The position numbers were made by a program, and so were the translations under genes. Below are positions 40,271-50,150 of a stretch of DNA of 64,000 bases, in pieces; positions within the stretch are counted from its first letter, which is position 1, and each line of letters begins with the position of its first letter. Under the pieces are notes generated by a model. The model ran no database searches, was not told the origin of the DNA, and worked only from the letters and a program-made list of their open reading frames with translations. The DNA comes from Luteimonas aquatica (GTDB taxonomy: Bacteria; Pseudomonadota; Gammaproteobacteria; Xanthomonadales; Xanthomonadaceae): NCBI RefSeq assembly GCF_022662575.1, contig NZ_JALBFU010000001.1:305188-369187 (forward strand). The letters are read 5' to 3'.

Positions 40271-40304
40271 AAGGACCAGGCTGCGAAGCCTGGTCCTTTT
40301 GTTT
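40271..40304 (+). terminator. Intrinsic terminator after the small secreted protein gene
   Basis: Perfect 12-bp stem (arms 40271-40282 and 40287-40298, loop GCGA) followed by a T-rich run on the plus strand. The rest of 40222-40486 holds no recognised gene; the sequence just before the amidase start carries only its ribosome-binding site. Confidence 0.85.
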
Positions 40305-40486
40305 TGTTCCGCGCTTTGATGCCGTGCGTGAGGAGAGATCGACGCCCCGCTGACGGTCGGTCCGAGGCGCTAATTCGCGAAACGAACCGGCCGGAGGACA
40401 CAAGTCCTGGCGGCGGAGGAAATGGCGATATTGTCGATGAAGCCAGGGTTTTCAACCTCCGTATCGACCATATCGGGAGTGTCTCC

Positions 40487-42631
40487 ATGTCTGACGACCG
40501 TTGCCTGTCCAATGCGTTCCGGAATGCCGCAGTACTGTCGCTGGCCTGCAGCCTGGGTCTTGTCTTCCCCGCGGGACGCTCGATGGCGGCGACGCCGGAC
40601 AAGGAGCAGATTCCGGCGTCGGCCAAGGGCGCACCGGCGAGCTTGCAGCCGCTGCTGGCCGAGCGCGCGAAATACCGGACGTATTTTTCCGCCGCCTACG
40701 CACGCTATCCCGATCTGCCCGTCGGACTGCTCGAGGCGATCGCCTGGTCGGAAACCGGGTGGACGCACGTCCGGCCGGACCCGAGCCCGCAGGCGCACAG
40801 GCACATGCCGCCGGCCTACGGGGTGATGGGACTCTATCGGGGAGAGGGATTCGCCAACCAGGTGCGCGAGGGCGCGAGGCTGCTCGGCGTCAGCGAGGCC
40901 ATGGTGATGTCCGACCCCGAGCTCAACATCCTCGCCGGCGCCGCGCTGCTCGATCAGGCGTTGCGGGCCACGCGGGAGCGGGCGAATGCGGCGGGGCTGT
41001 CCGGCGACGACGCGGTGCTGGCGCGAGCGCTGGCTGCGTACGCCGGCTACGGGAGCGGCGGCGGGAACATCCGCTCCTACGCCAGGACCAGCTTTGCCTA
41101 CAACGTGCTGCTGGGGGCGGAACGCGGGATCACGGAGCGCGGCGTCGAGATTCCCCGGCGGAAGGTGGAATGGAACAAGGCCTTTCCCGGCAATCAGCTG
41201 CGGGTGCTGCGCGCGCCCGTGCTGAACGTGGATGTCGACGCGGACCGGATCACTCCCGAATCGGCCACCACGGCGCCGGCCGCCGCCGCGCCGCAGGCGA
41301 CGGCATCCGCGACCTTGGCCGGGGATTTCGGCGAAGCGATCTGGAACCCGGCCAGTTCCAGCAACTACAGCACCGCGAGCAACGCCGCATCGGCGGTGAT
41401 CCTGCACACCACGGAAGGCTCCTACGCCGGGGCGATCGCCTGGTTCCAGAACCCCTCCGCACAGGTCTCGGCGCACTACGTGATCCGTAAATCCGACGGC
41501 CAGATCACGCAGATGGTGCGCGAGTACCACCAGGCCTGGCATGCGGCGTACCACAACGGCTACACCGTCGGCATCGAGCACGAGGGCTATTCCAACGATG
41601 CGGGCACCTGGACCGACGCCCTGGTCAACGCCTCGGCCCGGCTGACGCGCAGCATCTGCGCCCGCCGCGGCGTCAACTGCGCCTCCGCCTGGCAGGGGCC
41701 GGGCTACGACTACTGGCACGTGGTGCCGGACAGCGTGCGCGTGAAGGGACACGGCATGCTGACCAACAACGAGAACCGCTACGACCCCGGCAAGTATTTC
41801 CCCTGGGGGCGCTACTACAGCCTGATCAACGACGGCGCCCCGCCCAGCACCACGCCGCCGCTGTACTGGGTGGATACCTATGCCAACGCGCCGGGCTACG
41901 GCAGCGCGACGAGCACCGCGCAGACCGGCACGCTGTATGCGGGCACCAACTACGTGCGCTGCAAGACCTGGGGGCGCGAGATCCGCAACGGCACCTCGTT
42001 CAACCACTGGTGGCTGAAGACCGACCTCGACGTCGGGCCGGCGAACCAGTGGATATCGGCGTACTACCTGAGCCGCTGGGGCAGCGACGAGGCGCGCGAC
42101 AACGACGGCTTCGACATCCCGCGCTGCGAAGTGCTGCCCTATGGCGAGATCGCCAAGAAGTACTACGCCCTGGGCGGCGTGCGCAGCGTGCTGGGCTCGC
42201 CGAAGCTGGCCGAGATGGCCGCCCAGCAGGGCGGGCGCTTCCAGCAGTTCGACAAGGGCATCATCCTCTGGCACACGGCGACGGGCGCCTTCGCCGTGCA
42301 CGGAAAGATCCTCGACCAGTTCTGGGCGACCGGCGGCGAGACGGAATGGGGCTTCGCCAAGATGGACGAAATGGCCGCGGCCAAATCGCCGGCGACCGGC
42401 CAGATCGGGCGCTACCAGTACTTCCAGAAGGGCCTGTTCCTGTGGACGGCCGCAACCAACGCCCACGTCATCCACGGCGCCATCCTCGTCCACTTCGAGA
42501 ACAACGGCCGCGAGGCGAAGTTCGGCTATCCCACCAGCGACGAACAGCCCTACAACGGCAGCGGCCGCAAGCAAACGTTCGAGCGGGGCACCTTCTACTG
42601 GACGCCGGAGAATGGGGTCTGGGTGAACTGA
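40487..42631 (+). CDS. Secreted N-acetylmuramoyl-L-alanine amidase with transglycosylase-like N-terminus and LGFP repeats
   Basis: 714 residues in three parts after a signal peptide (to about 34, SMAA). (1) A lytic-transglycosylase-like helical domain (about 45-240) with a catalytic-type glutamate in AIAWSETGW and PAYGVMGLY. (2) An Amidase_2 domain (about 280-460): AVILHTTEG, AHYVIRKSDGQITQM, GYTVGIEHEG and VKGHGMLT give zinc and catalytic residues for cutting the MurNAc-alanine bond. (3) A C-terminal region (about 460-714) with LGFP repeats (YYALGGVRSVLGSP, FWATGGETEWGF, FENNGREAKFGYP) that usually bind cell wall. GGGAG precedes the ATG by seven bases; a longer upstream reading is rejected. 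It may attack foreign cell walls. Confidence 0.87.
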   Translation: MSDDRCLSNAFRNAAVLSLACSLGLVFPAGRSMAATPDKEQIPASAKGAPASLQPLLAERAKYRTYFSAAYARYPDLPVGLLEAIAWSETGWTHVRPDPSPQAHRHMPPAYGVMGLYRGEGFANQVREGARLLGVSEAMVMSDPELNILAGAALLDQALRATRERANAAGLSGDDAVLARALAAYAGYGSGGGNIRSYARTSFAYNVLLGAERGITERGVEIPRRKVEWNKAFPGNQLRVLRAPVLNVDVDADRITPESATTAPAAAAPQATASATLAGDFGEAIWNPASSSNYSTASNAASAVILHTTEGSYAGAIAWFQNPSAQVSAHYVIRKSDGQITQMVREYHQAWHAAYHNGYTVGIEHEGYSNDAGTWTDALVNASARLTRSICARRGVNCASAWQGPGYDYWHVVPDSVRVKGHGMLTNNENRYDPGKYFPWGRYYSLINDGAPPSTTPPLYWVDTYANAPGYGSATSTAQTGTLYAGTNYVRCKTWGREIRNGTSFNHWWLKTDLDVGPANQWISAYYLSRWGSDEARDNDGFDIPRCEVLPYGEIAKKYYALGGVRSVLGSPKLAEMAAQQGGRFQQFDKGIILWHTATGAFAVHGKILDQFWATGGETEWGFAKMDEMAAAKSPATGQIGRYQYFQKGLFLWTAATNAHVIHGAILVHFENNGREAKFGYPTSDEQPYNGSGRKQTFERGTFYWTPENGVWVN

Positions 42632-43611: not shown

Positions 43612-44064
43612 TCAGAACATGCCGTAGCGGGCCATGGCCGCGGCGCAGACGAAGATCGCGGCGACCATCAGCAGTTCGAAGCGGACGATGCGGGCGAGGG
43701 TGGCGGCTTCGGCCGGCGCGGGCAGGAAGGACGGGTCGGCCTTGAGCGCCTTGCGCCAGCGCAGGAAGCGGACGGTCGGCCAGGCCGAGAGCAGGGCGGC
43801 CAGGACGAACAGGCCGATCTTGGCGTGGAACCAGGGGTTGTGCAGGTAATAGTTCCAGCCCTTGGCGCCGTAGAGCAGGCGCAGGATGCCGACCGCGAGC
43901 AGCAGGGTGGCGGTGGCGCCGTAGCCGGCGTCCACGCCTGCCAGGCGGCGCAGCACGGCGGCGTCGAGCGTGCCGCGCAGCAGCACCGATTCGGTCACCA
44001 GCATGGCGATGAAGCCGAACAGCAGCAGATGGTGGAGGCTGGCGAGGATGAGGTCGGTGAGCAT
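43612..44064 (-). CDS. DUF2214 family membrane protein
   Basis: 150 residues with four hydrophobic helices (about 5-25, 48-66, 80-100 and 125-145). The region LYGAKGWNYYLHNPWFHAKIGLFV between helices 2 and 3 is typical of DUF2214. The family's function is unknown. The histidines within and next to the helices could bind heme or metal, but this is not established. The ATG at 44064 is chosen; the longer upstream frame runs into the cytochrome gene region. It lies 107 bases downstream of the diheme cytochrome gene on the same strand. Confidence 0.82.
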   Translation of the reverse strand: MLTDLILASLHHLLLFGFIAMLVTESVLLRGTLDAAVLRRLAGVDAGYGATATLLLAVGILRLLYGAKGWNYYLHNPWFHAKIGLFVLAALLSAWPTVRFLRWRKALKADPSFLPAPAEAATLARIVRFELLMVAAIFVCAAAMARYGMF

Positions 44065-44170: not shown

Positions 44171-44974
44171 TCAGCGGTCGGGCGGCAGCGACGACAGCCA
44201 GGCCGAGAGCGCCTGGATGCTGTCCTCGTCCAGGCGTTCGGCGACGCCGCGCATGACCAGGTCGGTGGTGGCGTCGTGCAGCTTGCCGTCGCGGTACTCG
44301 CCGAGCTTGGTCTGCAGGTACAGCGACTGCTGCCCGCGCAGGGCGGGATAGGCGGCGAACGGAACGTGGCCGTCGCGGTCGGGGCGCAGCGCGTCGGCAT
44401 GGCCGCGCGCGTCGGCGCCGTGGCAGCCCTGGCAGGGCGGGATGCCCTTGGCGGGATCGCCTTCGAGGTAGAGCCGCTCGCCGCGCTGCAGTTGCGCGGC
44501 GTCGGCGGGCGGAGTTGCTTCTGCGACCGGGGCCTGCGGTTTCAGTCCCGCGTAGTAGGCGGCGAGGTTGCGCAGGTCCGTGTCGCTCAGCTCGGCCACC
44601 AGCGGCGTCATCGGCGATTCGGTGAGCGTGCCGCGCTTGAATTCGACCAACTGCCAGTAGAGGAAGTCGATGCGCTGGCCGGCGAGGTTGGGGAAGTTGG
44701 GCGCGATCGCCGTGCCCTGCGGGCCGTGGCAGGCGGCGCAGAGTTCGGACTTGGCCTGGCCGGCGGCGGCGTCGCCGGCGATCGGGCGGGCGCGACGCAG
44801 GTCGCTGTAGGGGGTGGGCGGTGTCGGCGGAGCAGGCGGCGCGGCGGCGGTTTCCTGCGCCGGCGGCGCCGCGGCCGGCGCGTCGGCAGGCGGCGCGTCC
44901 TGCGGCCGGGCGAAGGCGAGCGCGCTGGCGGCACAAACCGCGGCGAGCAGCGACCAGGTCCAGGCGCGCCTCAC
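44171..44974 (-). CDS. Diheme c-type cytochrome (c4-like)
   Basis: 267 residues: a signal peptide (to about 21), a Pro/Ala-rich spacer (about 22-57) and two class I cytochrome c domains. The heme sites are Cys79-x-x-Cys-His83 (CAACH) and Cys181-x-x-Cys-His185 (CQGCH). Distal methionine candidates lie in SPMTPLVAELSD and in DLVMRGVAERLDED. The arrangement resembles cytochrome c4, a periplasmic electron carrier that often feeds terminal oxidases. The start is a GTG at 44974 in a four-base overlap with the MtrB-like gene, so the carrier is made together with the outer-membrane conduit. The proline-rich spacer may let it reach across the periplasm. Confidence 0.88.
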   Translation of the reverse strand: MRRAWTWSLLAAVCAASALAFARPQDAPPADAPAAAPPAQETAAAPPAPPTPPTPYSDLRRARPIAGDAAAGQAKSELCAACHGPQGTAIAPNFPNLAGQRIDFLYWQLVEFKRGTLTESPMTPLVAELSDTDLRNLAAYYAGLKPQAPVAEATPPADAAQLQRGERLYLEGDPAKGIPPCQGCHGADARGHADALRPDRDGHVPFAAYPALRGQQSLYLQTKLGEYRDGKLHDATTDLVMRGVAERLDEDSIQALSAWLSSLPPDR

Positions 44975-47514
44975 AGCTGCATCTCCAGCAGCACGCCGAC
45001 CATGTTGACGCTGTAGCCGGTCGGCCCGCCGTCGGTGTAGACGCGGTGGTCGATGACCTGGCCGTCCTCGAAGCTGGTGTAGTGCCAGTCGAAGACGCTG
45101 CCGCGCTGGTAGGTGTCGAACAGGCGCATGCTGAGGCTGCGGTGGATCGGGAAGGTGAGGGCGAGGGTGAGCGTGTTGGTGCGGTAGACCATCGCCGGGA
45201 ATTCGCCGTCCAGGGGCACGGCGCCCACGGCCGGCGAGACCAGCGCGCCCGCGGAGTTGTAGCGATAGCCGGTGAGGCCGCGCGAATAGGTCCAGTTCCA
45301 GTCGGCGTCCAGCACCACGCGTCCGATGCGCCGGCTGAGGCTGGCGCCGGCGTAGTGGTTGCGCTGCCTGTCGCGCATCCACCAGCGGTTGGCCTCGGGG
45401 TAGGTGCTGCCGCCGAGGTTGGGGTCGGGTCCTGGCGCTGCGTCGTTGACGTTGGCGAAGTCCAGCGTGGAGCGGTCGTAGCCGTACCAGGCGCTGGCCA
45501 CGGTGGCCGGGCTCGGCTGCCATTCCCACTGCAGGCTGCCGCCGAGGGTGTCGTAGCCCTGGCGGCCGAGCAGGGCGTCGTAGTCGTTCCAGTCGCCGCG
45601 CAGCGAGGCGTACAGGGTCATCTCGCGCGGCAGGGTGAGGGTGGCCATCAGGTCGATCTTGTTCTGCACGCGTCCGGCGACGTCGTACTTGCGCAACTGC
45701 GCGACGGTGTGCGCGGTCTCCTCGCCGTTGTAGCCGGGCAGCTGGCTGGAGAAGGTGAACTCGTAGGGATCGTAGTCGTACTCGCTGCCGGTGCGGCGCA
45801 GGTAGGTGTAGTTGGCGCGGAAGGTCAGCCAGTCGAGGGCGCGGTTGTTCCAGGTCAGCTTGAGCGCATGGTCGCGGGTGGTGGCGACCTCGCGGTGCGT
45901 GCGCTCGGTGCGGTCGAAGGTGTAGGTGGCGCCGAAGGTGTTCTTGGCGTTCCAGCGCCAGTCGCCGCCGAAGGAGACTTCGTTGAGTTCGTTGTCCAGC
46001 GGCATGTTGCGGATGGTGGTGAAGGCGCCGGGATTGGTCAGCGGATCCCAGACGCCCGACTCGCCGGGCACCACGCTGCCTTGCGAGCCGTTCTCGCTCG
46101 GATAGCCCCATTGCCCGGTGAGCGGGTTGTAGGCCCAGTAGGTGCCGGCGTAGTCGTTACGCTGGTACTTGACGTTGCCGCGCCAGGTCAGGCGGTCGGA
46201 GGGCTGCAGCACCAGGCGCGCGTCGAGCAGCTGCGAGTCGATGCTCAGGTCGGCGCGGCGGCGCGAGAGCGCGGCCGGGGTATTCCAGTCGGCGCAGTTG
46301 AGCAGCGCGCCCGGGATGCCGTTGATGCCGAACTGGCCCTGGCAGTTCATCGGCGCCACCAGCTTGTCGTTCTGGCGCATGGTGCCGCCGGAGGCTGTGA
46401 GCGAGAACTCGCCGGTGGTGCCGCCCCAGGCCAGCTTGCGGCTGAGGCTGGTGCGCAGGTGGTGGTAGTCGTTGTCGGGCTCGTAGGAGAACGAGCCCTG
46501 CGTGAGCCTGGGCGCAGTCAGGCCCGGCACCACCGGCGACAGGGCGAACGGCACCTCGTAGTCGAAGCTGCGGTTGCCGTGGCGGAAGAACGAGCCGGAG
46601 TAGGCGAACTCCATGCGCCACAGGTTGCCGACGAAGCGCGCGCCGCCGTTGAGGTTGACGGTGCTGTCGTCGATCGGTCGCGGGATCTCGTAGACGCCGC
46701 CGTTGTCGGCGAAGGGATAGTTGAAGAAGAACGGCCCGCCGAACGGGCGCGCGCCCTTGCGCGACTCGTGGCTGGCGTTGACGAAGGCGGCCCAGCGCTT
46801 GTTGATGAAGTAGTTCAGGCCCACGCCCTGCTTGTCGCGCACCACCTTGAGGATGCGCTCGGGCTGCGCCGCCGAGACCGCCGCCGCCTGCGCCGGCGTG
46901 CTGCCGCCCGGGACGAGGCCGTCCTTGAGGGTGAGGTGGTTGCCGCCGACGCCGTCCCAGATCGAGCGCGCGTTGCCGCTGACCACGTTGGCCTGGCTGC
47001 GCGCGAAGGCCTGCACGCGGAACTTGCCGGCGCGCCCGAACACGGCGCGCACGTACTGGCTGTCGCCGTTGAGGCGGCTGGCGCGCAGGTCGACGTAGCT
47101 GCCGTCGCCCGGATGCTCCAGGCGCAGCGCGGCGCCCAGGTAGAGGCCGTCGTCCCAGTTGGAGTAGCGGCGCCAGAGCATGTTGTTCTCGTCGCCGTGC
47201 AGGCCGAGATAGCCGAAGCTCAGGCGGCCGCTGTAGACGCCGGAGGCGTCGCCGCCGTAGGCCTCGGCCGGCGGGCAGGCGTAGAGGAAGCCGGTGGGCG
47301 TGCGCTTGCCCTGCGCGGTCAGCCAGCTGGCGCCGTCGGAATCGCAGTGCCGCGTGCCCAGGCCGCGCGGATCGAGCGCGTCGCCGAACTGCAGGTCGGT
47401 GCCGATGCCGCTGTCCTGCGCATGGGCGCAGGGCGCGCCGAGCGCGAGCATCAGCAGCGCCGGCAGCCGCCGGCGGAGGAGGGGACTGCAGCACGTTCCC
47501 TGGCGCCTGCGCAT
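44971..47514 (-). CDS. MtrB/PioB family outer-membrane beta-barrel of a decaheme electron conduit
   Basis: 847 residues: a signal peptide (to about 32, APCAHAQ) then a long beta-barrel with alternating strands rich in Tyr, Trp and Arg and ending in an outer-membrane-type strand (VGVLLEMQL). Segments such as FGYLGLHGDENNMLWRRYSN and GWRW-like strand pairs are of the MtrB/PioB type, the porin that sheathes a decaheme cytochrome so that electrons can cross the outer membrane. It is 12 bases downstream of the decaheme cytochrome gene and overlaps the diheme cytochrome gene. The Shewanella MtrB is shorter (about 700), and PioB is nearer in size. Confidence 0.87.
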   Translation of the reverse strand: MRRRQGTCCSPLLRRRLPALLMLALGAPCAHAQDSGIGTDLQFGDALDPRGLGTRHCDSDGASWLTAQGKRTPTGFLYACPPAEAYGGDASGVYSGRLSFGYLGLHGDENNMLWRRYSNWDDGLYLGAALRLEHPGDGSYVDLRASRLNGDSQYVRAVFGRAGKFRVQAFARSQANVVSGNARSIWDGVGGNHLTLKDGLVPGGSTPAQAAAVSAAQPERILKVVRDKQGVGLNYFINKRWAAFVNASHESRKGARPFGGPFFFNYPFADNGGVYEIPRPIDDSTVNLNGGARFVGNLWRMEFAYSGSFFRHGNRSFDYEVPFALSPVVPGLTAPRLTQGSFSYEPDNDYHHLRTSLSRKLAWGGTTGEFSLTASGGTMRQNDKLVAPMNCQGQFGINGIPGALLNCADWNTPAALSRRRADLSIDSQLLDARLVLQPSDRLTWRGNVKYQRNDYAGTYWAYNPLTGQWGYPSENGSQGSVVPGESGVWDPLTNPGAFTTIRNMPLDNELNEVSFGGDWRWNAKNTFGATYTFDRTERTHREVATTRDHALKLTWNNRALDWLTFRANYTYLRRTGSEYDYDPYEFTFSSQLPGYNGEETAHTVAQLRKYDVAGRVQNKIDLMATLTLPREMTLYASLRGDWNDYDALLGRQGYDTLGGSLQWEWQPSPATVASAWYGYDRSTLDFANVNDAAPGPDPNLGGSTYPEANRWWMRDRQRNHYAGASLSRRIGRVVLDADWNWTYSRGLTGYRYNSAGALVSPAVGAVPLDGEFPAMVYRTNTLTLALTFPIHRSLSMRLFDTYQRGSVFDWHYTSFEDGQVIDHRVYTDGGPTGYSVNMVGVLLEMQL

Positions 47515-47526
47515 GCCGTGTCCTCC

Positions 47527-48585
47527 CTATTTGTGCAGCCGCGGACCGGCGGGGTTGTTGGAGCCGTGGATCTGCGCGTGGCAGGTCAGGCAGCCGCGTC
47601 CCATCAGCCGCTCGTCCGGCGCCATGCCGCCGGCCAGCTGCTGCTCGACGAACAGGTCGTTGGGATGGCGCGTGTGCGAGTGGCACTGCTGGCACAGCAT
47701 CGGCACCGGGGCCACCAGCAGCGCGTGCTGGTTGGAGCCGTGCGGGGTGTGGCAGTTGAGGCAGTTCTCGCGCGCGGGCGCGTGCTCGAACAGGAACGGC
47801 CCGCGCTTCTCGGCGTGGCACTGGTAGCAGGTCTCGTTGACCGTATCGGTCTTCAGCAGCGCGGTGTTGATGGTGCCGTGCGGATTGTGGCAATCGGCGC
47901 AGGCCATCTGGCCTTCCGGCAGCGGCATGTGCGAGCGGCGGTTGAACTGCTGGCGGATGTCCTTGTGGCAGGTGGCGCAGGTCTCGTTGATCGACTGCTT
48001 GCTCTGCAGGCCCTCGGCGGACAGTTGCGCCATCGGGTTGTGGCAGTCGCTGCAGGACAGGTCGTTGCGTTGGTGCACCGAGCCCAGCCAGTGGTCGCGC
48101 GGGCCACCGGCGTGGCAGCCCAGGCAGCTCGCGGTCTGGGTCTTGACCGGCGTGCCGCCGTTCCTGGTGAAGGCGATGATGGCGCCGGGCTGCGCCGGGT
48201 TCTGCGCGTGCGCTGAGCCGGGACCGTGGCAGGCCTCGCAGGTGGCGGTGCCCGGATCGGCCGCGAAGGCCGCGTTCATGCCCAGCGCGTGGATGGTGTG
48301 GGCGAAGTTCTGCGATTCCTTGGCGTGGCAGGCGGTGCACACCTGCTGGCCGACCGGCTTGGCGCCCGGGGCGCCCGGGTTCTCCGGGATCGAGGGATGG
48401 TCGAAGCCCGGTGCGGGATCGAAGCCGTGGCCGTTGCCGGGGGTCTCGCTGCTGAAATTGGTGGCCGGCAGGTTGTGCGGATTGGCCGGAGCGGCCGCGC
48501 CTTCCTGGGCGGCGACGGGCGCGAACCAGGCCGCCGCCGCGAACACGCATGCCGTCGCCAACCCGATCGCCAAGAAAATCCGCAT
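47527..48585 (-). CDS. Decaheme c-type cytochrome, DmsE/MtrA family
   Basis: 352 residues with a signal peptide (to about 27) and exactly ten CXXCH heme sites, at Cys83, 116, 154, 178, 203, 229, 253, 275, 298 and 332. Number, even spacing and length match MtrA/DmsE/PioA, the periplasmic decaheme rod that inserts into an MtrB-type porin. In the known systems it passes electrons out to metals or DMSO, or inward from Fe(II). No MtrC/OmcA-type surface cytochrome, CymA-type quinol oxidase or DMSO reductase is encoded nearby, so direction and partner are open. GGGAAGGGG precedes the ATG. First gene of the operon, with a palindrome about 50-66 bases upstream. Confidence 0.93.
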   Translation of the reverse strand: MRIFLAIGLATACVFAAAAWFAPVAAQEGAAAPANPHNLPATNFSSETPGNGHGFDPAPGFDHPSIPENPGAPGAKPVGQQVCTACHAKESQNFAHTIHALGMNAAFAADPGTATCEACHGPGSAHAQNPAQPGAIIAFTRNGGTPVKTQTASCLGCHAGGPRDHWLGSVHQRNDLSCSDCHNPMAQLSAEGLQSKQSINETCATCHKDIRQQFNRRSHMPLPEGQMACADCHNPHGTINTALLKTDTVNETCYQCHAEKRGPFLFEHAPARENCLNCHTPHGSNQHALLVAPVPMLCQQCHSHTRHPNDLFVEQQLAGGMAPDERLMGRGCLTCHAQIHGSNNPAGPRLHK

Positions 48586-48635: not shown

Positions 48636-48651
48636 CGTAATCTTTATTACG
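48636..48651. promoter_or_regulatory. 16-bp palindrome in the TetR-decaheme cytochrome gap
   Basis: CGTAAT-CTTT-ATTACG, perfect 6-bp arms, AT-rich against a GC-rich background, 51 bases before the decaheme cytochrome ATG. A TTGACG -35-like box on the minus strand (48678-48683) lies 27 bases upstream of it, placing the palindrome over the expected -10/start region. Most likely operator for the neighbouring TetR-type regulator. Confidence 0.6.
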
Positions 48652-48735
48652 TTTAGAGTGCGACGGGATTCAGCGGCCGTCAAGCCTTCGGCCCGGGAAG
48701 CCGGCCTTGGATGCGGAACGCTGGGTTGCGCGGGT

Positions 48736-49410
48736 CTAGCGGGGCAGTGCGCCGTGCAGGAACAGGTCGAGGGCGGCGCGCGCTTCGTCCTGCGCCTTGG
48801 ACAGGTCGGGCGCGGTCAGGTTGCCGCTGGCCACGCGGATGATCAGCTCGCCGAAGATCATCATGAAGAACTGCGCCGAGGCCAGCTGCGGCGAATGCAG
48901 CGAGAGCCGGCCCGATTCGATCTCGTGCTTCAGGTAGTCGGTGAGCATGGCCTGCGCCGGCGCCACCGCGTTCTCGAAGAACCAGTCGCGCAGGCCGGGG
49001 AAATCGCGGCCCTCGCCGATGACGATGCGGTGGATCAGCACCGACTCGCGGGTGAGCACGCTGTCGATCATGTTCTCGCCGGCCTGGCGCAGCGCGATCT
49101 GCGGCGGCAGCCCGGACAGATTGAGCGCCTGCAGCTGTTCGGCCACGGTCGCCATGTGCCGCTCCATGATGGCGTGGGCCAGGCCTTCCTTGTCGCCGAA
49201 CACGCGGTACAGGGTCGCCATCGAGCCGCCGGCGCGGGCGACGATGTCGCTCAGCCGCGCCTGCCGGTAGCCCTTCTCGATGAACACGTCGGTGGCCGCG
49301 TCGAGGAAGCGCTCGCAGCGCCGTTCGCCGCGCTTGCACAGCTCCACCTCCGGGCGAGGCCGGAACGGCGTGTCGGCGGGGAGGCGGGCGGTGGCGGTGG
49401 ATTTGGGCAT
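48736..49410 (-). CDS. TetR/AcrR family transcriptional regulator
   Basis: 224 residues. The N-terminal helix-turn-helix (about 30-78: FLDAATDVFIEKGYRQARLSDIV, GGSMATLYRVFGDKEGL) is of the TetR type, and the C-terminal half (about 90-215) is a helical ligand domain with TetR_C-like FFMMIFGELIIRVASG. It is on the same strand and just upstream of the decaheme-cytochrome operon; the palindrome at 48636-48651 lies in the 150-base gap between them. Repression of that operon is the obvious guess; ligand unknown. The ATG at 49410 is chosen; longer in-frame starts exist upstream without support. Confidence 0.87.
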   Translation of the reverse strand: MPKSTATARLPADTPFRPRPEVELCKRGERRCERFLDAATDVFIEKGYRQARLSDIVARAGGSMATLYRVFGDKEGLAHAIMERHMATVAEQLQALNLSGLPPQIALRQAGENMIDSVLTRESVLIHRIVIGEGRDFPGLRDWFFENAVAPAQAMLTDYLKHEIESGRLSLHSPQLASAQFFMMIFGELIIRVASGNLTAPDLSKAQDEARAALDLFLHGALPR

Positions 49411-49553: not shown

Positions 49554-50150
49554 TCAGGCGGCCTGGTCGGTGCTCAGGGTGCTGTCGGCGCGCAGGAACC
49601 ACTCGCCCGACTGCGGGAAGAACTTGGAGCAGCACTCCATCTGCGCCTGGTAGATGTGCAGCGACACCGCGACCGCGCGGGCGCTGGCGTTGGCGATGGT
49701 GTGGTACTCGTGCGGCGGGATCAGGCTGCCGGCGCTGCCGGGACCGGCGTGCATGCCGCCGGCGGCGCGGAAGCGGAAGCGGTCGCCGTCGCGCTCGATC
49801 AGTTCGTACTGGGTGATTTCCAGCTCGCCGTCCCAGACGCCTTCCACGCACCACAGGCCGGAATGGTCATGGATCGGCGTGCCCTGGCCCGGGCCCCAGG
49901 TCATCGCCACCACGCTGTAGCCGTGCCGGGCGCTGCGGTACAGCTCGCGGCGCGCGTAGTGGTCGTCGATGGCCTCGAAGACGCAGTCGGGCAGGCGCAC
50001 ATCCGGGTCGCGGATCAGCGCGCACATGGCGTTGCGCAGGCTGGCGGTGATCGCGTGCTCGTCGCCGAGCGAGACCGCTTGGTCGATGGCGGCGACGAAC
50101 TTGTCGTGGCCGGGGAAATCGAGATCGGGCAGGGGGGCGACGGAAGCCAT
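49554..50150 (-). CDS. Cysteine dioxygenase family protein
   Basis: 198-residue cupin of the cysteine dioxygenase type I family, which adds oxygen to the thiol of cysteine (or a related thiol) to give the sulfinate. Iron ligands are His94 and His96 (PIHDHSGLWCVEG) and His150 (PHEYHTIAN). Cys101 in the same segment sits at the position of the mammalian Cys-Tyr crosslink residue. It is 64 bases downstream of the MetX-family gene on the same strand, so a role in sulfur amino acid turnover is likely. 3-mercaptopropionate dioxygenase is an alternative. Confidence 0.87.
   Translation of the reverse strand: MASVAPLPDLDFPGHDKFVAAIDQAVSLGDEHAITASLRNAMCALIRDPDVRLPDCVFEAIDDHYARRELYRSARHGYSVVAMTWGPGQGTPIHDHSGLWCVEGVWDGELEITQYELIERDGDRFRFRAAGGMHAGPGSAGSLIPPHEYHTIANASARAVAVSLHIYQAQMECCSKFFPQSGEWFLRADSTLSTDQAA

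Follow-up and report, generated by a model that had tools for sequence, protein, structure and literature searches.

The occurrence of genes resembling an outer-membrane electron conduit in Luteimonas aquatica raises the question of what such a system does in this organism, and in which direction it would carry electrons. Members of the Xanthomonadaceae are common aerobes in soil, in association with plants and in wastewater, and to our knowledge they are not usually counted among the organisms that wire themselves to minerals. We addressed this question in a stretch of 64,000 nucleotides of this genome (hereafter the window) and in the genomes of its relatives.

The locus is built around three genes, all on the minus strand, in the order mtrA, mtrB, c4. 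The mtrA-type gene (47527..48585) encodes a decaheme c-type cytochrome of 352 aa with ten CXXCH motifs, which scored 260.9 bits against TIGR03508 (cut-off 192.2) and matched the solved MtrA of Shewanella baltica (6r2q_A) with an E-value of 1.8e-60. It is followed, after an intergenic gap of 12 bp, by a gene for an mtrB/pioB-type outer-membrane barrel of 847 aa (44971..47514), which scored 297 bits against PF11854 (MtrB_PioB, cut-off 23) and matched 6r2q_B by sequence with an E-value of 7e-14. Under the stricter model TIGR03509 the barrel stayed below the cut-off (212.6 vs 240.05), which counts against the conduit reading. The third gene (44171..44974) has a GTG start that overlaps the mtrB stop by 4 bp and encodes a diheme protein of 267 aa with two CXXCH motifs, whose best solved matches are cytochromes c4, spanning both domains. 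Profiles, PDB matches, overlap and gap thus bear out the description of three coupled genes given by the first-pass annotation. Two other identities of the diheme were rejected: CcoP, for which the score was far under the cut-off, and PdsA, for which there was only a weak match of 42 bits (cut-off 330). PdsA is a diheme found beside mtrCAB elsewhere; the window protein likewise lies beside a conduit, but is a c4. A literature search on PdsA returned only unrelated papers.

The residues expected to bind heme are conserved. The first-pass annotation had proposed aligning the CXXCH sites, and among 15 aligned relatives the invariant histidines of the decaheme were those of the ten CXXCH motifs and exactly ten others, which would fit the distal ligands of ten bis-His hemes. 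The first CXXCH is located at residue 83, with no long N-terminal extension. In the c4, Met122 and Met241 were invariant among 16 aligned relatives, as would fit two His/Met hemes and, by analogy with the c4 family, a high potential. The AlphaFold2 model of the barrel contains 26 strands of at least 10 residues by our count, and its best fold match in the PDB is Shewanella MtrB (chain B of 6r2q; E 1.6e-34, with a TM-score of 0.83 when normalised by target length), the second-best match having an E-value of 7e-11. The mean pLDDT of this model is only 66 (pTM 0.63), which counts against it, and residues 1-85 are a low-confidence part. A decaheme with ten CXXCH motifs and an adjoining 26-strand barrel of the MtrB/PioB family are among the features that define the MtrAB/MtoAB/PioAB superfamily, and the window system displays both, the strand number being that of the model. 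MtrA would be held inside MtrB, in a complex spanning the outer membrane. The assignment as an outer-membrane conduit, already made by the first-pass annotation, draws support from the sequence, from the predicted fold and from the order of the genes, which is conserved.

Of the 105 CXXCH-coding sites in the genome, 100 were listed, and the trio forms the sole dense cluster among them; this, together with the recurrence of its gene order in other genera, places it beyond chance. Its GC and GC3 content match those of the neighbouring genes in the window, and a recent foreign origin was rejected on these grounds. Carriage on plasmids was rejected as well: a tblastn search with MtrA against a plasmid collection retrieved a single record, from Photobacterium, at 39% identity.

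A PF11854 profile search detected the barrel over the cut-off in 33 of 297 genomes of the family Xanthomonadaceae (49 at E 0.001, the additional matches being weak). Wide stretches were read for 28 of the 33 MtrB-positive genomes, window included, and revealed two conduit types. The window type (n=16) has a barrel of about 850-900 aa and a decaheme of about 350 aa, and its c4 gene adjoins the barrel gene in 16/16 family loci, so that the search for the same trio in related genomes, also suggested at the outset, was successful; the trio occurs in 16 of the 297 sampled genomes. The second type (n=12, L031-L042) likewise has a decaheme adjoining an MtrB-type barrel, but the barrel is shorter, neither the c4 gene nor the TetR gene described below was found in the 12 stretches, and its MtrA groups with the MtrC-side clade. 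Two of these stretches (L031 and L032) contain a pair of conduits, and in L031 a nine-heme gene lies between the two.

Among sampled congeners, full-length MtrB was found in the first survey only in the window genome and in G123, whose MtrA and MtrB are 91% and 87% identical to those of the window; G662 (locus L219) was added later. When 369 genomes sampled across the class were searched with an alignment of window-type barrels, 13 matched at E 1e-20, and outside the family only G660, from the same order, and G301, from the same class, matched strongly. A scan of named genomes for MtrA relatives, of which the best 80 of 244 were kept, located the trio in Pseudoxanthomonas kalamensis, Stenotrophomonas mori, Dokdonella fugitiva, Dyella marensis, Frateuria and one Rhodanobacter MAG. 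Across the 13 named loci L058-L070 the c4 gene was present in 11, the contigs of L064 and L069 stopping inside the barrel gene; by their length, L058 and L061 were taken to be the contigs of the family loci L046 and L044. The labels of L059 (Pseudomonadales MAG) and L064 (Burkholderiales MAG) may be binning errors. Within some 9 kb around the match in L058-L082 and L104, where several contigs are short, a further gene with at least eight hemes was seen only in L068 and L074. The latter carries a second MtrA-type gene near the conduit, while the former, the Rhodanobacter MAG, carries the mtrA-mtrB-c4 trio twice in tandem (L068:6120-15833).

To place the clade, a step that the first-pass annotation had also recommended, we built a tree of 71 decahemes (LG+G4, midpoint root), a set outside which the MtoA of Sideroxydans, the PioA of Rhodopseudomonas and named DmsE proteins remained. 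The window MtrA falls in a clade of 24 rows (support 100/100), nearly all of them from Xanthomonadales, nested in a 36-row clade (100/99) that includes Chromatiaceae, Zoogloeaceae, Rhodoferax, Methylobacter and Ca. Ferrigenium straubiae. Across the 100/99 split lie Shewanella MtrA and the second type of the family. A quicker tree of 96 rows agrees with this placement. As placed by these trees, the c4-coupled branch appears to span the Xanthomonadales and to be related to the conduits of purple sulfur bacteria and of one Fe(II)-oxidising member of the Gallionellaceae. The locus is thus not an oddity confined to one genome, given this clade and the 16 of 297 family genomes; a second MtrAB type also occurs in the family.

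Some members of the wider clade display gene contents of their own. Two c4-like dihemes follow the barrel gene in seven loci (L073-L076, L078-L080), including those of the purple sulfur bacteria Thiococcus pfennigii and Thiorhodococcus drewsii (L073:699-7453 and L079:8499-15226), and it is possible that their conduit serves phototrophic electron uptake. An upstream gene is common to these two species, Thauera and Pseudothauera; in Thiococcus it encodes an AraC-type regulator. The methane oxidisers of the genus Methylobacter (L071, L072) carry a close MtrAB relative with no c4 after the barrel gene.

One of the closest known counterparts is the conduit of Ca. Ferrigenium straubiae, a Gallionellaceae member from the KS enrichment; He et al. 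(PMC5566968) call it MtoAB and describe a comparable operon for the KS Gallionellaceae. Its MtrA is 53% identical to that of the window and belongs to the same 36-row clade; as in the window, no MtrC was seen beside the conduit. In Ca. Ferrigenium straubiae ccm genes follow, as in the usual order of the window type. Its partners are, however, two DHC-type dihemes, one of them fused to cytochrome b561, whereas those of the window type are c4 and azurin. MtoABD-CymA of Sideroxydans and PioABC of Rhodopseudomonas likewise combine a decaheme with a large barrel without a surface decaheme, and electron uptake has been proposed or shown for Mto and Pio conduits, according to the accessible portions of PMC5566968 and PMC10654088. 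The carriers of Sideroxydans are the monoheme MtoD and CymA, in contrast to the diheme c4 and azurin of the window type; in the window genome no NapC/CymA passed the cut-off. PioABC has the HiPIP PioC in third place and a long N-terminal extension on PioA, while the window has a c4 in third place and no such extension. In Shewanella MtrCAB, MtrA and MtrB are homologous to the window pair, but that system includes the surface decaheme MtrC, which the window genome lacks, and its MtrA lies across the 100/99 split. DmsEFAB differs in its adjacent molybdopterin reductase DmsA, of which there was none among the window's neighbouring genes scanned.

The surroundings of the trio extend the system beyond three genes. 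Upstream lies a TetR regulator of 224 aa with an AefR-like C-terminal domain (48736..49410, minus strand; PF00440 and PF14246 over cut-off), found in the same place in 12/16 family loci (the contig of L057 stops too early to tell). The usual order is tetR, mtrA, mtrB, c4, azurin, ccmC-E-F-G-H, a MetX-like gene and a cysteine-dioxygenase-like gene, and the congener locus L219 keeps it in full. The window genome instead displays MetX, dioxygenase, tetR, mtrA, mtrB, c4 and DUF2214. The cysteine-dioxygenase-like gene upstream (49554..50150, minus strand, PF05995) and the DUF2214 membrane protein downstream (43612..44064, minus strand, PF09980) are probably bystanders: they adjoin each other without the cassette in 6/28 congener loci, three of whose genomes were surveyed and had no MtrB over the cut-off, and the dioxygenase-like gene stays with the MetX-like gene in congeners. 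Farther away, at 40304-42631 on the plus strand, the window encodes a large secreted-looking amidase with an Amidase_2 domain and three LGFP repeats, unrelated to the conduit; a match to SLT in it was below threshold.

Azurin was within the fetched stretch in 12/16 family loci, and its not being adjacent in the other 4/16 counts against a link, as does G184, in which none was found, the exception among 17 carrier genomes (azurin in 16/17). In the lineage of the window genome and G123 the tetR-conduit and azurin-ccm halves are apart, and the only azurin of the window genome lies directly before ccmC, about 384 kb from the trio, so that adjacency alone could reflect mere location. Plastocyanin/azurin-family proteins also occur after the c4 gene in Dokdonella (L062:14441-14845) and, as a homologue of that cupredoxin, between the barrel and c4 genes of G660 (L139:4068-4508), and the cupredoxin link is therefore wider than one family. 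Genes for ccm also stand behind the conduit in Stenotrophomonas mori, Pseudothauera and Ca. Ferrigenium straubiae (L060, L075, L104); a recurrent link between the conduit and cytochrome c maturation is suggested.

Between tetR and mtrA we identified a predicted operator, described here for the first time, namely the palindrome GTAATCTTTATTAC (48637..48650, no strand) of the class GTAAY-N4-RTTAC. An exact match to this class was present in the tetR-mtrA gap of 13/14 TetR-bearing loci (12/13 before L219 was added), the sole exception being L046, whose operator has one mismatch. Base shuffles of 13 gaps gave on average 0.001 loci with an operator, and at most 1, and the 64-kb window contains one match for 0.01 expected. 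The operator was absent from the 12 window-type loci in which no TetR was observed (207,724 bases, with little or no upstream sequence in L057, L059 and L139), which counts against the reading proposed below, and occurred once in the 12 second-type stretches, at L036:713-726. A background scan of further fetched sequence (1.77 Mb, some of it overlapping), with TetR and operator-bearing azurin loci left out, returned four matches: those in L196, L198 and L199 are the same sites in overlapping loci, and the fourth is that of L036, the only operator-like match outside the TetR and azurin-ccm loci within the fetched sequence. A hexamer, TTGA[C/T], precedes the operator by 32-38 bp in 13/13 loci, but no full sigma-70 promoter passed a scan, a point against the proposed reading. 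The helix-turn-helix region of TetR is largely invariant among 12 aligned proteins.

The same motif would connect the conduit to azurin. Where azurin lies upstream of tetR (L049, L051), a second operator stands about 50 bp before it, and in the window genome and G123, in which the cluster is split, both halves carry the operator: a perfect copy is found some 55-60 bp before the start codon of the remote azurin (L192/L210, L200). With up to one mismatch allowed, none was found at any of ten further azurin loci (L201-L209, L211) from eight carrier genomes. We also read the ccm-metX site in nine congeners (L214-L222). In L219 the conduit, azurin and the operator are all present, and a copy with one mismatch precedes azurin. 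L220, which lacks the operator, carries a divergent azurin (48%). In six others (L214-L218, L221) ccmC occurs with neither azurin nor operator, and the stretch of L222 stops before ccmC. The genome-wide PF11854 survey took in L214-L216, but not L217, L218, L220 and L221, and found no MtrB in those three. Azurin at the ccm site would therefore tend to co-occur with the conduit. The operator at the remote azurin and the six congener stretches with ccmC but neither azurin nor conduit are the reasons for which we keep the azurin link as evidence, and in our view the remote operator and this co-occurrence are the strongest new evidence presented here. Taken by sequence, the TetR regulon would comprise the conduit and azurin, with a shared operator at both promoters, and the ccm cluster behind azurin probably belongs to it. 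The trio at the centre of the first-pass annotation stands, but its span was too narrow, since it covered neither the regulator with its operator (48637-49410) nor the remote azurin-ccm cluster.

The inventory of partners provided insights into the direction of electron flow. The first-pass annotation had found no surface decaheme, quinol dehydrogenase or DMSO reductase adjoining the trio, and for the first two this now extends to the whole window genome: the MtrC family (TIGR03507) had no match there and none over the cut-off in 17 carriers (0/17), the four weak matches all lying inside mtrA genes, and NapC/CymA (PF03264) had none over the cut-off, only three weak matches, two of them within the decaheme gene. 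Cytochromes c4 and azurins are high-potential carriers. Transfer from Fe(II) through c4 and azurin to an oxidase would thus run downhill, while reduction of Fe(III) oxides would run uphill, an argument for uptake that does not extend to outward transfer to MnO2 or peroxide. Inward flow, at which the first-pass annotation had hinted from the c4 alone, is favoured by the two invariant methionines of the c4, by the link to azurin and by the missing MtrC and CymA; the proposed direction depends on the potentials expected of c4 and azurin. In the accessible text of Baker et al. (PMC8805035), conduits for uptake and for reduction do not form separate clades, which counts against the inward reading. 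The window genome has both aa3-type and bo3-type oxidase operons, typed from translations, and the bo3 type counts against the proposed route. The operator was not found in the oxidase stretches, nor in those of two more c4-like loci, which are only 30-34% identical.

Based on these findings, we consider it somewhat probable that the locus encodes a conduit of the Mtr/Mto/Pio type with a c4, within a TetR-controlled regulon that includes azurin and probably ccm, and that electrons flow inward. More tentatively, we propose a ligand-switched uptake regulon of heterotrophic Xanthomonadaceae, in which one TetR governs an MtrC-free MtrAB-c4 together with azurin and ccm. An extracellular donor, for which Fe(II), dissolved or mineral, is the leading candidate and a reduced organic shuttle the alternative, would pass electrons to MtrA at the surface, from which they would reach c4 and azurin and then the aa3-type cytochrome c oxidase. 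Both promoters would be kept silent by TetR as long as its ligand is not bound; we infer this repression, as well as the redox potentials, the donor and the oxidase partner. RuBisCO was detected in none of the 17 carrier genomes, and autotrophy was rejected on this basis; uptake would accordingly supplement heterotrophic growth, as lithoheterotrophy.

The arrangement could also work in reverse. MtrAB chains conduct both ways, and c4 or azurin could be reduced by the bc1 complex, so that electrons might leave through c4 or azurin and MtrA towards MnO2, H2O2, iodate or chelated Fe(III), for redox balancing or detoxification. Shewanella MtrCAB does reduce H2O2 outside the cell, according to the accessible part of PMC9732548. 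We nevertheless regard an outward conduit as unlikely, as there is neither MtrC nor a quinol dehydrogenase of the NapC/CymA kind, and reducing Fe(III) oxides would be uphill from such high-potential carriers. A further alternative concerns the substrate: diffusible phenazines, quinones or humics, oxidised or reduced in place of iron, might exchange electrons with the conduit and also be the ligand of TetR. Control by a TetR-type (small-ligand) regulator with an AefR-like domain, and the operator at both promoters, speak for such a shuttle, but the kinship of the conduit to that of the Fe(II) oxidiser Ca. Ferrigenium straubiae speaks against it, and we hold it to be quite unlikely.

Much less can be said for a part in extracellular DMSO or iodate respiration of the DmsE-DmsF type, whose catalytic subunit would lie at a distance. 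TIGR03508, by which the decaheme was named, is titled DmsE family; however, it covers MtrA-type proteins generally, the best PDB match is a solved MtrA, the neighbouring genes scanned include no molybdopterin oxidoreductase, and c4 and azurin are not DMS partners, which renders this explanation highly improbable. The patchy occurrence within the genus could point to a degenerate, functionless remnant. Against this, heme and ligand positions are intact, MtrA and MtrB retain 91% and 87% identity to those of G123, the overlapping genes and the operator have been kept, and the GC content is like that of the rest of the window, so that we give a remnant hardly any credence. The preferred reading is, then, an uptake conduit under TetR control.

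Our literature search, outside which most subscription papers remained, found no description of a conduit in Xanthomonadaceae and no paper joining azurin, MtoA and MtoB. Judging from the sequence evidence, the c4/azurin-coupled, MtrC-free conduit with its predicted TetR operator appears to be real, of the Mtr/Mto/Pio kind, and a new variant. The accessible text of PMC7767972 describes a weathering community in which a Dyella-like MAG of the Xanthomonadaceae is abundant; this MAG has a Cyc2 homologue and no RuBisCO. This fits a lithoheterotrophic habit in the Xanthomonadales, though with another iron oxidase.

The partners (c4 and azurin) and the switch (TetR and its operator) would belong to one defined regulon, which makes the question of MtrAB direction testable, and the operator offers a simple handle for finding more members of the regulon and for inducing the pathway in culture. 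If the proposed reading is true, electron uptake would extend to ordinary heterotrophs, with a bearing on iron cycling and mineral weathering. These findings hint that heterotrophic Xanthomonadaceae may have access to an unrecognised extra source of energy.
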